Origin: Polyangiaceae bacterium
GTDB taxonomy: Bacteria > Myxococcota_A > Polyangia > Polyangiales > Polyangiaceae
DNA: 64,000 bases
NCBI GenBank assembly: GCA_019637265.1
Contig: JAHBVY010000002.1
Coordinates: forward strand, 620,001-684,000
Reading direction: 5' to 3'
Under the pieces are notes generated by a model. The model was not told where the DNA came from and did not search any database. It saw only the letters and a program-made list of their open reading frames with translations. Of this stretch, positions 28,161-39,512 are shown piece by piece. Positions within the stretch are counted from its first letter, which is position 1; each line of letters starts with the position of its first letter. The translations under genes and the position numbers were made by a program.

Positions 28161-29480
28161 TCAAGTGTAGCGCGCCGCCAGCGTGCTCAGCTGACTCACC
28201 GTGGCGTCGAGCTCACGCCGCTCTTCAGGGCGCTGAGTGACGAGCTGGCGGAGATCGTCTTGCGCCGCGATGGCTCGGTCCACCAGGGGGTCACTGCCCT
28301 TGGCGTAGGCACCCAGGCTGATCAAATCACGCCGCTCCTCGTAAGCGCCGATCAGCGCGCGCAGCCGCTCGGCAGCGCTTCGATGCTCCGGCGTCACCAC
28401 CTGGGGCATCACGCGCGAGAGCGAGCTCGGCACATCGATGGCGGGGTAATGGCCGCGCGCCGCGATGCGGCGATCCATCACGATGTGACCATCCAAGATG
28501 CCGCGCACCTCGTCGGCGATGGGCTCATCCATGTCGCCACCCTCCACCAGCACGGTGTAGATGGCGGTGATCGACCCGCGGCTCCCCTGGCCGCTCCGCT
28601 CGAGCAACCGCGGCAACATCGCGAACACGCTCGGCGGGTAACCACGCCGCGCCGGCGGCTCCCCCGCTGCGAGCCCCACCTCGCGCTGCGCGCGCGCGAA
28701 GCGCGTGATGGAGTCCACGAGCAAGAGCACGCGCTGCCCTGCGTCGCGGAACGACTCCGCGATCGCCGTGGCCACCTGCGCCGCCTTGAGCCGCTCGAGC
28801 GCTGGCGCGTCGCTGGTCGCGATCACCACCACGGCGCGCCTCCGCCCCTCCTCCCCCAGCGAGTGCTCCAGAAACTCCCCCACCTCACGACCGCGCTCCC
28901 CGACCAGCGCCACCACCACCACGTCCGCCGTGGTCCCCCGCGCGATGCTGCCGAGCAGCGTGCTCTTCCCCACGCCGGATCCCGCGAACAGCCCCACCCG
29001 CTGCCCCACCCCCACCGTCATCAAGCCATCGACCACGCTCACGCCGGTTGGCAGCGGGCTGTCCACCGGGCGCCGCGACAGCGCAGGCGGCGGCGCGCAA
29101 TCGACAGGCATACGTACTAGTGGCCCCGTGAGCGGCTCACCGAGCGGGCGCCCCAAGCCATCGAGCACGCGCCCGAGCACCGAAGGACCCACCGACACCG
29201 TGAGCGGCGCGCCGAGCGACTCGACGGGATCATCCGGGCCCACGCCGTCCAGCGACCCGAGCGGCATCGCCACCACCTCACCGTCAATGAACCCGACTAT
29301 CTCCGCCATCAGCGGCGTGCCGCGTCGGCGCACCGTCACCACGTCCCCAACGCGCCCACCTGGCAGCGACGCCCTGAGCGACAGGCCCGTCACCGCGCGC
29401 ACCTTCCCGCTGGGCCTCAGCGCCGAGGCGGCCGCGAGCTGCGCTTTCAAGGCATCCAGGTCCACGAAGGGAGCGTACAC
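28161..29480 (-). CDS. FliI/SctN-type (type III secretion/flagellar) ATPase
   Basis: 439 residues from a GTG. This is the rotary-type ATPase that energises flagellar or type III export. Walker A GSGVGKST is at 167-174 in VGLFAGSGVGKSTLLGSIAR. PLPTGVSVVDGLMTVGVGQR precedes it, and Walker B is VLLLVDSITRFARAQREVGLAAGEPPARRGYPPSVFAMLPRLLERSG-like. The C-terminal HYPAIDVPSSLSRVM and FliI-like length fit the family. No other flagellar or secretion component is present within this window. Confidence 0.9.
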   Translation of the reverse strand: MYAPFVDLDALKAQLAAASALRPSGKVRAVTGLSLRASLPGGRVGDVVTVRRRGTPLMAEIVGFIDGEVVAMPLGSLDGVGPDDPVESLGAPLTVSVGPSVLGRVLDGLGRPLGEPLTGPLVRMPVDCAPPPALSRRPVDSPLPTGVSVVDGLMTVGVGQRVGLFAGSGVGKSTLLGSIARGTTADVVVVALVGERGREVGEFLEHSLGEEGRRRAVVVIATSDAPALERLKAAQVATAIAESFRDAGQRVLLLVDSITRFARAQREVGLAAGEPPARRGYPPSVFAMLPRLLERSGQGSRGSITAIYTVLVEGGDMDEPIADEVRGILDGHIVMDRRIAARGHYPAIDVPSSLSRVMPQVVTPEHRSAAERLRALIGAYEERRDLISLGAYAKGSDPLVDRAIAAQDDLRQLVTQRPEERRELDATVSQLSTLAARYT

Positions 29481-31764: not shown

Positions 31765-31933
31765 AAATGCCGTGTACGACGCGCTGAGCGCGCTTGCTCG
31801 GCGCAGATGATCTCAGCAAACGAGTTGACGTTTTGCCATCGATTCGTCACCTTGCACGTCCTAGTCACCGGCCAGGCGCGCTGGGCGCCCGACTGATGGT
31901 TTCACAACTCACTCTCACCCTATGGAGTCACGA

Positions 31934-32371
31934 ATGAAGAACCGATTCTTGAGTGTTGGGGCACTGTTGGTCCTCACGAGCACGCTCAGCCTGGCTGGCT
32001 GCAGCGACGACGAGGACGACAAGAAGCCCGGTAGTGGCGGCACAGGCGCCACGGGCGCGAGCGGCGGCACGGGCGGTTCCACCGCAGGCACCGGCGGCAC
32101 GGGCGCCGTGGGTGGCACCGCGGGCACGGGCGCCGTGGGCGGCACCGCGGGTACCGGCGGCTCCACCGGCGGCACGGGCGGCTCCACCGGCGGTACTGGC
32201 GGCTCCACCGGCGGTACTGGCGGCTCCACCGGCGGCACGGGTGGCTCCACGGGTGGTACCGGCGGCTCCACCGGCGGTACGGGTGGCTCCACGGGTGGTA
32301 CCGGCGGCTCCACCGGCGGTACGGGTGGCTCCACGGGTGGCGTCGCGGGCACCAGCGGCGCTGGCGGCTGA
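31934..32371 (+). CDS. Gly/Thr/Ser-repeat lipoprotein
   Basis: 145 residues. A GGAG 6 nt upstream favours the ATG at 31934 over that at 31922. The signal core is GALLVLTSTLSLAGC with lipidation at Cys, then an acidic patch (SDDEDDKK). The remainder is a pure low-complexity tail of 7-residue units GGSTGGT, with 42-bp higher-order copies in the DNA. Such tails are common spacers in Polyangia lipoproteins, but here nothing follows the spacer. It may be a truncated surface protein or a surface brush. A perfect inverted repeat follows the stop. Confidence 0.7.
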   Translation: MKNRFLSVGALLVLTSTLSLAGCSDDEDDKKPGSGGTGATGASGGTGGSTAGTGGTGAVGGTAGTGAVGGTAGTGGSTGGTGGSTGGTGGSTGGTGGSTGGTGGSTGGTGGSTGGTGGSTGGTGGSTGGTGGSTGGVAGTSGAGG

Positions 32372-32611: not shown

Positions 32612-33400
32612 ATGGAGAAGCCGGGTCCCTGGGGCATCGTCGCGCTCCTGTCGTTCAGTACAGTAGCCCGAGCGGAGGAGGTCGAGGCGAGCCGTGTGCC
32701 ACCTCCCCCGCCACCCGCCGCTGCAAAGGAGCCTCCGGTTCGCCCCCGTGGTGAGCCGCAGCGGGGCGCGCCAGCACCGCGCACTGGCTTTCAGATGGAT
32801 ATTCGCACCGGCGTGCGCTTCCCCGCCGGTGAAGCGACGGGGGAGCCCGGCGACGACCTGGCCTCGCGCTACAGCTGGCAGGTGCCCATCGCCGTTGGGC
32901 TGGGCGCCAAACTGAGCCCACGGGTCTACCTAGGGGGCTACCTGGGCTTCGCCTTCGGCGCTGAGGGTAGCGACAACCGCGTCGAGTACCTCTGCGAGGA
33001 CAATGACGTCAATTTGCAGAACGATAACGCCTGCTCCACGGTGTCGTTCGAGATCGGGGCGCAGCTCACCTACTCCTTCTCCCCAGGAGAGCGCTGGAAC
33101 CCTTGGATCAGCTACGGACTGGGTTACGAGGTCACGAGCCAATCGCTCGACATGACCCGCGACCGGCGCCGGTTGTACAGCGAGTCCACCTCCTCGCGCG
33201 GCATCACCTTCGCGAAGCTGGGCGCCGGACTCGACTACCGCGCGAAGGTCGGCGTCGGCCCCTTCGCCGAGGCCGCCATCGGACAGTTCCTCTCCAACTC
33301 GACGGTCACCTCCATCGAGAGCCGTCAGACGCACGACATCGACGACACCGCCATCCACGCCTGGATCACCGTGGGCATCCGCCTGGTGATCCAACCCTAG
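32612..33400 (+). CDS. Outer-membrane beta-barrel-like protein, copy A1
   Basis: 262 residues from the ATG at 32612; the start is chosen because the paralogue at 33980 begins with the same pattern (GPWGIVALL versus GSWGVLALL). A signal peptide ends at ARAEE. A Pro-rich spacer follows, then a domain of alternating hydrophobic strands: FQMDIRTGVRFPAG, WQVPIAVGLGAKLSPRVYLGGYLG, IGAQLTYSFSPGERWNPWISYGLGYE, FAKLGAGLDYR and VGPFAEAAIGQF. It is probably a small outer-membrane barrel. Two Cys lie in one loop. It is the first half of a duplicated cassette. Confidence 0.7.
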   Translation: MEKPGPWGIVALLSFSTVARAEEVEASRVPPPPPPAAAKEPPVRPRGEPQRGAPAPRTGFQMDIRTGVRFPAGEATGEPGDDLASRYSWQVPIAVGLGAKLSPRVYLGGYLGFAFGAEGSDNRVEYLCEDNDVNLQNDNACSTVSFEIGAQLTYSFSPGERWNPWISYGLGYEVTSQSLDMTRDRRRLYSESTSSRGITFAKLGAGLDYRAKVGVGPFAEAAIGQFLSNSTVTSIESRQTHDIDDTAIHAWITVGIRLVIQP

Positions 33401-33405
33401 GGCTC

Positions 33406-33786
33406 ATGCACTCACGCCGCTCCATAGCCAGCTTCGCTGCCCTGTGCCTGGCTGCCTTGCTCGCCTGCCAAACGGATCCAGGTGGCCCTGAGCTCGCTCG
33501 CTTCTCGGTGACGGTGCACGACAGCCAATCTCAGATCAAACAGGAGTGCCTCTACCTGCCGGTGCTGTTGGGGAGCCGTATCGAGCACGAGATCCGCGCT
33601 GGCGCTGGGTTCGTCATCCAGGTGAAGGCAACGCGCGACAGGGTCGAGCTGACCACCCGCGGCGCCTCGCCCAACGTCGACAAGCGGCTGGCCTACGAGA
33701 CACTGCGCGTAGGCTATGCAGAAGAGTTCGACCTCGACGTCCAGGGCGCGCCGTACCGACTGAACGTGTCGTCGAGCTGCCCCTGA
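33406..33786 (+). CDS. Small lipoprotein, copy B1
   Basis: 126 residues, starting 5 bp after A1. The signal is RRSIASFAALCLAALLAC with lipidation Cys. A single beta-rich domain follows: RFSVTVHDSQSQIKQECLYLPVLLGS, VIQVKATRDRVELTTRG, YAEEFDLDVQGAPYRLNVSSSC. The paralogue B2 has the same order, and two Cys (in ECxYLPVLLGS and at the C-terminus) are conserved between them, suggesting a disulfide. No named family recognised. Confidence 0.7.
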   Translation: MHSRRSIASFAALCLAALLACQTDPGGPELARFSVTVHDSQSQIKQECLYLPVLLGSRIEHEIRAGAGFVIQVKATRDRVELTTRGASPNVDKRLAYETLRVGYAEEFDLDVQGAPYRLNVSSSCP

Positions 33787-33979
33787 GCCAAACAAGGTAC
33801 GTCATCCTCACTGACGTCTGGCTCTCAGCGGATGTGGGCGCGCTTCACCCGCTCGCGACCACGATCCCCCGGCGCGCTCCGCAAGCTGAGCCAAGGTAGG
33901 GGTGATGTGCCTGGTCGCTCCAAGGCACCACATGAGATTCGTCCTCGATTGTCGTCAGGATTCAGGTAGGGTGGGACGC

Positions 33980-34843
33980 ATGAGGAGAGCGGGCTCTTGG
34001 GGCGTCCTCGCGCTGCTGTTCCTGGGCGCGGCAACGGCTCACGCGGAGGAGGCCGACGAGGCTCTTCTTGCCCCGGAGGAGGAGCCGGTCGTGCCACCGA
34101 CGGAGGACACGTCCATCGCAGAGCCGCCGAAGGAGCCTGAGCCCACCGCGCCCACGGGAGGGACGCCAATCGATCTTCAGGCTGACGAAGCGCCGGCTAC
34201 GGCTCGCGCGCCGGGCAAGAAAGCCCCCAAGCGGCCACCCAAGGCGCGTGAAGGTTTCCAGATGGATATTCGCACGGGCGCGCGCTTCCCAGCGGGGTCG
34301 GCCTCGGGCGCGCCAGGCGACTCGCTGGGCGCGCGCTACGCCTGGCAGGTGCCGCTCACCGTGGGCCTGGGCTTCAAGCTGAGCCCGCACCTCTACCTGG
34401 GCGGCTACATCGGTGGCGCTAGGGGCTCGCTGGGGAGCGATCAGCGCACCAGGCGGGCGTGCCGCCACGGCGGTGGCTGCCGAGCGACCGCTGCGGAGTT
34501 GGGCGCGCAGCTCAGCTACTCCTTCTCGCCAGCGGCGCGCTGGAACCCATGGATCAGCTACGGCCTGGGCTGGGAGCAAGTCATTCAGTCGCTGAGCACC
34601 GACGCATCGGACTTCCGAGGGTACGTCGAGGAGACCACCACTCAGGGCTTCACGTTGGCGAAGCTTGGCGTGGGGATCGATCACCGCGCCAGGGTGGGCA
34701 TCGGGCCCTTCGCGGAGGCCGCGGTAGGACAGTACTACGCCAACAAAACCCTACTGGGCGACGGCACGCTGACGAAGGAGATCGACAAGACCGCGCTCCA
34801 TGTCTGGATCACCCTTGGCGCTCGCCTCGTCATCGCGCCCTGA
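33980..34843 (+). CDS. Outer-membrane beta-barrel-like protein, copy A2
   Basis: 287 residues from ATG. Paralogue of A1: the signal ends at AHAEE, then an acidic/Pro-rich spacer longer than in A1, then the same barrel blocks (FQMDIRTGARFPAG, WQVPLTVGLGFKLSPHLYLGGYIG, LGAQLSYSFSPAARWNPWISYGLGWE, LAKLGVGIDHR, IGPFAEAAVGQYYAN). The loop with two Cys differs in sequence (RACRHGGGCR). The 193-bp gap before it has no gene. Confidence 0.7.
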   Translation: MRRAGSWGVLALLFLGAATAHAEEADEALLAPEEEPVVPPTEDTSIAEPPKEPEPTAPTGGTPIDLQADEAPATARAPGKKAPKRPPKAREGFQMDIRTGARFPAGSASGAPGDSLGARYAWQVPLTVGLGFKLSPHLYLGGYIGGARGSLGSDQRTRRACRHGGGCRATAAELGAQLSYSFSPAARWNPWISYGLGWEQVIQSLSTDASDFRGYVEETTTQGFTLAKLGVGIDHRARVGIGPFAEAAVGQYYANKTLLGDGTLTKEIDKTALHVWITLGARLVIAP

Positions 34844-34913
34844 GCAACAGCCTCTCCGCGTCGTCGTTCGACGAGACCGCCCTGAGCTTCGAGAGACCCC
34901 ACGTAGGCCAACC

Positions 34914-35300
34914 ATGAACTCACGCCGCTCCGTCTTCAGTCTCGCCGCCATATGCCTCGCTGCGCTGCTCGCTTGCAAGGAGGGCACGGACAACCCTGCG
35001 GTCTCCCGGCTCTCGGTGAAGGTGCACGGAGCCGGAGGCGAGCTCACCCGAGAGTGCGTCTACCTACCCGTGCTGCTGGGCAGCAACCTGGAGCGCACCA
35101 TCCCCTCGAGCGCAGGACTACGGATCCGCATCGAGGCGACACGCGACGAGGCGCACATCACCACCTCGGGTGCCTTCCCCAACGTCAAGCGAACGGTCAC
35201 CCAAGCGACGCTCGAGGCCGGCTACGCCGAAGAGTTCAGCCTCGATGTCCAAGGCGCGCGTTACCAGCTGAACCTAGCGTCCCAATGCGACGACGACTGA
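34914..35300 (+). CDS. Small lipoprotein, copy B2
   Basis: 128 residues from the ATG in MNSRRSVFSLAA; earlier open frame discarded because B1 starts at the equivalent Met. The signal ends at LAALLAC. The domain matches B1 block for block (RLSVKVHG, TRECVYLPVLLGS, RIRIEATRDEAHITTSG, YAEEFSLDVQGARYQLNLASQC). It is 70 bp after A2, compared with 5 bp between A1 and B1. A TCAG/CTGA mini-hairpin lies at 35313-35325. Confidence 0.7.
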   Translation: MNSRRSVFSLAAICLAALLACKEGTDNPAVSRLSVKVHGAGGELTRECVYLPVLLGSNLERTIPSSAGLRIRIEATRDEAHITTSGAFPNVKRTVTQATLEAGYAEEFSLDVQGARYQLNLASQCDDD

Positions 35301-35446: not shown

Positions 35447-35839
35447 ATGGCCAGCAAGGGGCGCCCTTATCGTCTTTTCGAGCTCGAAGGCTTCGAGATC
35501 TTGGTGGGCCGCGGTGACGCGGAGAACGATGAGCTCAGCTTTCGCGTCGCGAGTCAGCGCGATCTGTGGCTGCACGTCGGCGGTGGGACACCGGGGAGCC
35601 ACGTGGTGGTGCGGCGTCCGGAGGGAGTCGAGGTGCCGCGTGAGGTGCTGGTGCGCGCCGCGGAGCTCGCCGCGTGGTTCTCCAAGGCGCGCCATCAGAA
35701 GCGGGTGGAGGTGCACTACTGCCTGGCGGGGCAGCTCCGGAAGCCACGCGGTGCGCCGCGAGGGCTCGTGCAGCTGACGAGCTTTCAGCGCCTGAAGGTC
35801 ACCCCGGCGCTACCCGAGGGCGAGGCGAGTGACGGCTAG
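35447..35839 (+). CDS. Stand-alone NFACT-R (DUF814) domain protein
   Basis: 130 residues. The segment FEILVGRGDAENDELSFRVASQRDLWLHVGGGTPGSHVVVRRPEG, followed by AAWFSKARHQKRVEVHYC and RKPRGAPRGLV, is the NFACT-R domain. In RqcH/FpbA this domain is thought to contact RNA or the ribosome. The large N-terminal NFACT-N and coiled-coil parts are absent, so it is a single-domain version. The catalytic or partner role of such short forms is unclear. It lies downstream of the cassette and convergent with the next gene. Confidence 0.85.
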   Translation: MASKGRPYRLFELEGFEILVGRGDAENDELSFRVASQRDLWLHVGGGTPGSHVVVRRPEGVEVPREVLVRAAELAAWFSKARHQKRVEVHYCLAGQLRKPRGAPRGLVQLTSFQRLKVTPALPEGEASDG

Positions 35840-37678: not shown

Positions 37679-37862
37679 GTGGCCGGGGTCAAGGCTGGTG
37701 CCGAGCAGTGAACGAGGGTCGTGAGCGCCGTCCAGCCAAGGGTCGGGCGGGGCGCGCTGTCCCTCGCTTCATGGATGCTGCGCTGGATCGAGGTGCTCCG
37801 CCAAAGCGCAGCAATTCCGCGCAGTTATCCGCGCTTTGCCGCACTGCGCCGTGGGAGGCCGA

Positions 37863-39512
37863 GTGAGGGTTGATGCTAGAGTCGCGGGCCAGCCTCTCGA
37901 GCGCCTCGTGACCGCCTCCCTCGATCTCCTGTTCAACACGCCCTCGCCGCGCCTCGACCTCGCGCGGGTGCGGCGGGTGGTGTCGTTCGTGTACGCCGCG
38001 GGGGACTCCGGGGGCGCGCTGGCGGAGGCGCTGGAGCAAGTCAGGTTACCTGAGAGTCGCTTCGAGCCCCACTGCTTCGAGCGCGACATCTTCCTCACGG
38101 AGGGCGCGCGGGCGCTGTTCTCGCTCCGTCACGAAGAGCCGAGCGATCCATTGCCGCTCGGCTACGCCTGCGCGGTGCTCTCACGGCCGCCGCTCGCCGC
38201 GGAGGACGCTCAGTTCAGGCGCGAGGTGCTGGGCGAGCTCATCGCCTCGCCCGAGCTCGCGCGCGAGCTGGAAGATTTGTACGCTAGGCTGACTGAGCTG
38301 AAGAAGCGCATCACGAGCTCGGATCCTTCGAACGCGTCGCAGTCGGTGCGGCGGCGCCTGGAGCTGCTCGAGGACGTGCGCGGCGTGGTGGATCAGCTCG
38401 GCGCCTTCGAGGGTTGCCGCTCGGGCCTCGCGCGGCTCGCGGCGTGGTCCGCCGCGCTGCGCGAGACGGAGGCCTACCGGCGCTTGGCGCAGGTGCTCGA
38501 CTACGAAGCGAACCTGTCGGTGATGGACCTTCGGGTGGGGGTCGGGGTGGATGGTCGCGTCCGCGGCTTCGAGGTGGTGCGCCTCACGGAGAACGCGCAG
38601 AACCGCTTCTATGTTTCACCGTTGAAACGGCTGTTCACGCGCCTCGCGCTGTGGGTGCGTGGGTACCGCGTGGGGGAGCACGAGGTGCTCTCGCGCCTGG
38701 TGGATCACGTGTTCGCGAGCTTCGAGGATGAGGTGGCGGAGCTGCTTCAGCTCGCGCTCGACGTGCGGCTCTACCTGGGTCAGCTCGCCTTTCGGGAGCG
38801 CGCCCGCGTCGCGGGGCTCCGCACCCAGGTGGCGACCATCAAGGAGGGCGCGAGCCAGTTCGAGGCGCTCTTCAACCCGCTCTTGTTGGCGAGCGGCCTG
38901 CACCCGATTCCGTGCGGCATCGAGGTAGCGGCAGGGCAGGTGACGATCGTCACCGGGCCGAACTCAGGCGGTAAGACGCGGCTGCTCCAGTCGCTCGCCT
39001 ACGCGCAGCTCCTGGCGGAGGGCGGGTGGTTGGTGCCCGCGGCGCGCGCCGAGGTGACGCTGGCCGGTGGCCTGTTCGCGTCGCTGCTCGAGGAGCCCAA
39101 CGCGGGGCAAACGGAGGGGCGGCTCGGCAGCGAGCTCCTCCGGATCCGTCGGGTGTTCGAGAACGCCTGCCCGGGCGCCCTGATCTTGCTCGACGAGCTG
39201 TGCTCCGGCACCAACCCATCGGAGGGTGAGCAACTGTTTCAGTTGGTGGTGGAGCTACTCCACGAGCTCTCACCGCGCGCGCTGGTGACGACGCACTTCT
39301 TGGATTTGGCGGAGCGCCTCGCCGCGGAGCACCACGGTGAGGAGCTGCGCTTCCTCCAAGTGGAGCTGGATGATCGCACGCTGCCGACCTTCGGCTTCAT
39401 CCCAGGCGTCGCGGTCACCTCGCTCGCGCGCGAGACGGCGGCGCGCCTGGGTGTGACGCGCGACGAGCTGCTGGGCTTGATTCGTCGCCCGCGGAAGCCT
39501 CGCTCAGCCTAA
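37863..39512 (+). CDS. MutS-family ATPase lacking the mismatch-recognition domains
   Basis: 549 residues from a GTG (in-frame TTG at 37836 also possible). The C-terminal half is the MutS ATPase: Walker A VTGPNSGGKTRLLQSL, Walker B ALILLDELCSGTNPSEGEQLF and VTTHFLDLAERL. The N-terminal half is helical (clamp/core-like) and lacks the MutS N-terminal mismatch domain. It is not MutS2 either, as no Smr domain is visible. Its stop overlaps the convergent aminotransferase stop by 4 nt. DNA binding is plausible; the role is not known. Confidence 0.85.
   Translation: MRVDARVAGQPLERLVTASLDLLFNTPSPRLDLARVRRVVSFVYAAGDSGGALAEALEQVRLPESRFEPHCFERDIFLTEGARALFSLRHEEPSDPLPLGYACAVLSRPPLAAEDAQFRREVLGELIASPELARELEDLYARLTELKKRITSSDPSNASQSVRRRLELLEDVRGVVDQLGAFEGCRSGLARLAAWSAALRETEAYRRLAQVLDYEANLSVMDLRVGVGVDGRVRGFEVVRLTENAQNRFYVSPLKRLFTRLALWVRGYRVGEHEVLSRLVDHVFASFEDEVAELLQLALDVRLYLGQLAFRERARVAGLRTQVATIKEGASQFEALFNPLLLASGLHPIPCGIEVAAGQVTIVTGPNSGGKTRLLQSLAYAQLLAEGGWLVPAARAEVTLAGGLFASLLEEPNAGQTEGRLGSELLRIRRVFENACPGALILLDELCSGTNPSEGEQLFQLVVELLHELSPRALVTTHFLDLAERLAAEHHGEELRFLQVELDDRTLPTFGFIPGVAVTSLARETAARLGVTRDELLGLIRRPRKPRSA

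Follow-up and report, generated by a model that had tools for sequence, protein, structure and literature searches.

A tandemly duplicated gene pair for a predicted outer-membrane barrel and a putative lipoprotein in a Polyangiaceae genome

The window analysed here, a stretch of 64,000 nucleotides from a Polyangiaceae bacterium (GCA_019637265.1, contig JAHBVY010000002.1), contains two successive gene pairs, each consisting of a gene for a putative outer-membrane barrel (A) followed by one for a small putative lipoprotein (B). These comprise:

32612–33400, forward strand: A1, barrel gene, intact ORF; signal-peptide-like start, proline-rich tail of about 35 residues and predicted 8-stranded barrel core from 32774
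32993–33034, forward strand: loop L2 of A1, CEDNDVNLQNDNAC, Cys-flanked and acidic, with a calcium-site-like motif
33406–33786, forward strand: B1, putative lipoprotein, intact ORF; putative lipid Cys at 33466 and two further, invariant Cys at 33547 and 33778
33980–34843, forward strand: A2, second barrel gene, intact ORF; proline- and acid-rich tail of about 70 residues
34460–34480, forward strand: loop L2 of A2, CRHGGGC; in alignments the acidic insert is gone and both Cys are present
34914–35300, forward strand: B2, second putative lipoprotein, intact ORF; putative lipid Cys at 34974, invariant Cys at 35055 and 35286

The proposal of an earlier note on this DNA that the A-B cassette was duplicated in tandem stands, as do the coordinates which it gave. 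A1 and A2 share 57% identity over 218 residues [2e-73], B1 and B2 53% [9e-40], and the blocks of DNA repeated between the cassettes lie in similar register, at offsets of 1443–1508 bp, far above chance. The copies differ in the length of the intergenic gap (5 bases between A1 and B1, 70 between A2 and B2) and in their N-terminal tails. The search for further cassettes which the note had recommended found none elsewhere in the 5.7 Mb genome: no additional copy of A was matched, and the remaining matches to B were at chance level (E 0.02 or worse).

Directly upstream of A1 lies a lipoprotein-like ORF (31922–32371, forward strand) composed mostly of about 13 or more copies of a 21-bp repeat, the unit of which specifies seven residues rich in Gly, Thr and Ser; it has no Pfam match. 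Directly downstream of B2 is a gene for a stand-alone NFACT-R domain protein of 130 residues (35447–35839, forward strand), and at 37836–39512 (forward strand) one for a MutS domain V ATPase in which the mismatch-binding domain was not recognised. On the reverse strand, 28161–29480 encodes a rotary ATPase of the FliI/SctN type whose C-terminal domain is that of T3SS ATPases; no flagellar or T3SS genes were recognised near it in 18000–40800, a region that was mostly skimmed.

Both its AlphaFold2 model and the structural matches of that model place A among the 8-stranded outer-membrane barrels of the OmpA/OprF/NspA type, with a proline-rich N-terminal tail. The model of A1, derived from four sequences, has eight strands (pLDDT 78) and superimposes on 8-stranded barrels with Z scores of 14–16 over 131–181 residues, among them OprF (Z 16.0, rmsd 2.0 over 133 residues), NspA (Z 16.0), OmpA (Z 14–16) and OmpW (Z 14–15). 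A sequence search of the PDB with the A profile gave no match. By its Pfam scores A appears to sit at the edge of a known family, PF13505 [OMP_b-brl], which has a gathering cut-off of 28.7 bits: full-length A1 scored 24.3 bits and its core exactly 28.7 bits [1.7e-6]. Eight of the ten A members matched this family at E up to 1, the best of them at 5.5e-8; full-length A2 was not among the matches listed. The predicted fold is like that of the OprF/OmpA N-terminal domain, NspA and OmpW (PF13505). Unlike the OprF/OmpA-type barrels, however, A is without a C-terminal peptidoglycan-binding domain and possesses the proline-rich tail, a Cys-flanked acidic loop and a coupled lipoprotein gene. Two other assignments were rejected. 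As autotransporter beta-domains (PF03797) A1 and A2 scored 18.3 and 14 bits against a gathering cut-off of 26, and the predicted barrel has eight strands, not twelve; to BamG (NCBIfam NF053685) A1 alone was matched, at a chance-like 15.7 bits against an equivalog cut-off of 250.

B begins with a hydrophobic stretch leading through a small residue to a lipobox-like Cys, after which come about 105 residues with two more Cys. Across ten aligned homologues all three Cys are invariant, as expected from the conserved Cys described in the earlier note, and the alignment yields the motif C-x2-[LFV]-P-[VL]-L-x-G-[SG]. Taken with the eight strands modelled for A, this agrees with the original reading of the cassette as a beta-barrel plus a small lipoprotein. 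The statement that neither family could be recognised holds for B, which matched no family in Pfam or NCBIfam, but not entirely for A, given its apparent place near the edge of PF13505. The PDB likewise gave no sequence match to the B profile. The AlphaFold2 model of the mature part of B1 (pLDDT 90) is almost all beta. Its nearest solved folds are DUF1312 structures and NusG domain II (Z 6–7 over 76–86 residues; for 4obi Z 7.0, rmsd 2.6 over 82 residues), and as Z scores below 8 may reflect a common arrangement alone, the resemblance is suggestive only. A NusG domain II or DUF1312 sequence match was absent from all ten B members in Pfam (E up to 10) and in the PDB, and the DUF1312 proteins listed are from Gram-positive bacteria whereas B is myxobacterial. 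Foldseek with the B model returned nothing below E 0.07; its top matches, which were neurexin LNS domains, superimposed poorly and were taken as chance. In B2 the residue at +2 after the putative lipid Cys is Lys; of 12 M. xanthus lipoproteins of the inner membrane, 8 have Lys at this position (PMC3222651).

Run against 317 genomes of the class, the B profile recovered ten genuine genes; they lie in nine genomes, every one of which belongs to the window's family, and 377 genomes across the phylum added no more. The relatives are mostly draft assemblies, and the genome search scores only the best first-look candidates, so that strongly diverged B genes could have escaped it. One extra match [G060:C22:83115, 8.5e-4] fell inside a larger unrelated protein without the Cys pattern and was discarded. 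Every one of the ten B genes lies directly 3' of an A gene of a single clade, and every one of the ten genes of that clade precedes a B gene. The note had supposed that A and B are likely partners and had named homologues lying mostly apart as the observation that would speak against it; what was found is exclusive adjacency in both directions. The B-linked A genes are well separated by the A profile (E < 1e-78, the next barrels appearing only from E 5e-53) and form a clade with support of 100/96, within which A1 and A2 are sisters (100/98). No B gene occurs near A homologues outside the clade (E 5e-53 and weaker) in the loci examined, nor did a lipobox scan directly 3' of more distant A homologues reveal a consistent unrecognised lipoprotein partner. 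Genome G147 (locus L041), for example, has four A-type barrels, one of them with a B gene. In each of the eight loci with a single cassette, the stop codon of A and the start codon of B share a 4-base overlap, which reads ATGA (GTGA in L104) and implies translational coupling. When the surrounding 14–18 kb were compared among nine loci, no genes other than A and B proved to be shared, except in two congener pairs with general synteny. A search of genome contigs with a four-row A alignment found two loci, both already in the set; the contigs named came from metagenome assemblies, one of Myxococcales and one of Polyangiaceae. The partnership is thus well supported genomically, and from its distribution A-B would appear to be a compact, dedicated barrel-lipoprotein pair, found in this analysis only in one myxobacterial family.

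The loop bearing two Cys is L2, the second long loop of the barrel, which including both Cys measures 14 residues in A1 and 7 in A2. The two Cys, which probably form a disulfide, are widespread in the wider barrel family, where they mostly have 2–7 residues between them in the approximately 40 outgroups listed. In the B-linked clade they are separated by 11–12 residues rich in Asp and Asn, an acidic insert which is confined to B-linked A proteins and absent from the outgroup barrels. The strict form C-x-D-x-[DN]-x-[DN]-x3-[DE]-x2-C is present in six of the ten members, A1 included; three of the nine acid-loop homologues (L011, L042 and L043) fit loosely, and A2 does not fit at all. The earlier description of diverged Cys-containing loops was therefore correct in that L2 differs between the copies, but it is the acidic stretch, and not the two Cys, that diverged. 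A1 and five homologues have acidic residues or Asn at positions 1, 3, 5 and 9, the ligand positions of a DxDx[DN] calcium loop, and the resemblance to dockerin/EF-hand-like calcium loops suggests that L2 may bind calcium; in the A1 model the loop is of low confidence (pLDDT about 55–64). The strict motif has one match in the 5.7 Mb genome, which is L2 of A1, and 43 sites in 108 genomes of the family versus 3 for a reversed control, six of the 43 being in A-B cassettes and 37 elsewhere.

Since A1 and A2 are sisters inside the B-linked clade, the simplest account is that the acidic insert disappeared from A2 once the cassette had been duplicated. L2 of A1 is 52–56% identical to that of other genera and 24% identical to that of A2, and is thus closer across genera than between the copies, the opposite of what one would expect of a generally hypervariable recognition loop. 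Copy 2 evolved faster in both the barrel and the lipoprotein. Even when the loop columns are left out, A2 has a longer branch than A1 (0.51 vs 0.20; 59 of 60 bootstraps), and B2 has a longer one than B1 (0.66 vs 0.32; 47 of 51 bootstraps). Simple relative-rate counts, each made against a single outgroup, mostly fall short of significance, with a lean toward a faster copy 2 for A. The dN/dS ratio is about 0.5 for A and B, which places both under some constraint, and the synonymous distance is about 0.8. Copy 2 is an old duplicate under some constraint.

We consider the odds to be somewhat in favour, at roughly 55%, of A and B forming a dedicated two-component barrel-lipoprotein assembly which was duplicated, and of which copy 2 lost the acidic loop and evolved faster. 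A would be an 8-stranded barrel with its second extracellular loop held by the Cys pair, and the acidic DxDx[DN]xxx[DE] motif in this loop of most homologues would likely bind a divalent cation, for example calcium. B would be a lipoprotein of small size and all-beta structure that probably contains a single internal disulfide. In most relatives its synthesis would be translationally coupled to that of A, and it would likely bind to the barrel. A barrel this narrow leaves no room for a wide pore, and for that reason the pair would most likely be a surface or envelope binding or sensing module and not a transporter, the acidic loop serving as its cation-dependent element. Following the tandem duplication copy 1 would retain the ancestral loop, and copy 2 would have kept the barrel-lipoprotein scaffold with a surface function that changed or relaxed.

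Alternatively, B may be a periplasmic-side partner, such as a plug or chaperone, which assembles or stabilises the A barrel, the acidic loop then being unrelated to B. LptD-LptE is a barrel with a dedicated assembly partner, and the strict co-occurrence and gene overlap would be equally expected of such a factor. We are nevertheless doubtful of this role, since genomes with the pair also hold close paralogues of A that manage without B, for instance the three others in G147; the acidic insert and B are also limited together to one clade, although descent from one common ancestor would account for that as well.

A further proposal, made in the earlier note, was that the duplication and loop divergence reflect diversification of ligand or self-recognition, with hypervariable loops conferring ligand or kin specificity. 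Identity mapped on the model is indeed lower in the presumed outer loops of A1 and A2 (23 of 64 residues, 36%) than in the strands (83 of 126, 66%; Fisher p 1e-4), but faster loops than strands are normal for any barrel. Moreover, L2 is conserved across genera with only copy 2 departing, all of copy 2 is faster, dN/dS is below 1 and a single genome has two copies, all of which makes this explanation very unlikely. TraA-like kin recognition was also considered and dropped, nothing in the sequence pointing that way. Were copy 2 redundant, in decay and eventually to be lost, one might expect its faster evolution, its missing acidic loop and the opening of the tight A-B junction into a gap. Both of its frames are intact, however, the structural Cys and barrel motifs are retained, dN/dS is as low as stated above, and the high synonymous distance indicates that copy 2 is long persistent; we hold this fate to be quite unlikely.

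Under the reading of a dedicated, duplicated assembly, the RcsF/OMP complex offers a works-like parallel in which a small lipoprotein and an outer-membrane barrel may be compared with A-B in surface sensing (PMC4942254). The partners of RcsF are several general OMPs whose genes lie elsewhere (PMC4942254), whereas B always adjoins its own barrel gene; characteristic of RcsF/OMP is a lipoprotein threaded through the barrel, with a periplasmic signalling domain. BamG-BamH of the Bacteroidota BAM complex (PMC12611786) could similarly be likened to A-B as an OMP which docks a surface lipoprotein, but the barrel of BamG is FadL-like and binds BamA (PMC12611786), and the score of A1 against the BamG family was, as given above, far below the cut-off. 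The resemblance to both systems is one of architecture, and membership in either is not supported.

One might go further and suppose that a cation-switched, Cys-stapled barrel loop is read by its own translationally coupled lipoprotein, which would make A-B a self-sufficient device for sensing calcium or the surface across the outer membrane, of a previously undescribed family, with a calcium-independent paralogous pair in the window's genome. We regard this as unlikely. Our best reading is of a new family of barrel-lipoprotein pairs in which copy 2 shed one surface feature and diverged. Such pairs are a recurring design for outer-membrane machines and sensors, the best known being from enterobacteria and Bacteroidota. 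The tandem copies described here constitute a natural experiment: on one and the same scaffold, copy 1 has the acidic loop and copy 2 lacks it, so that what the loop does is directly testable.
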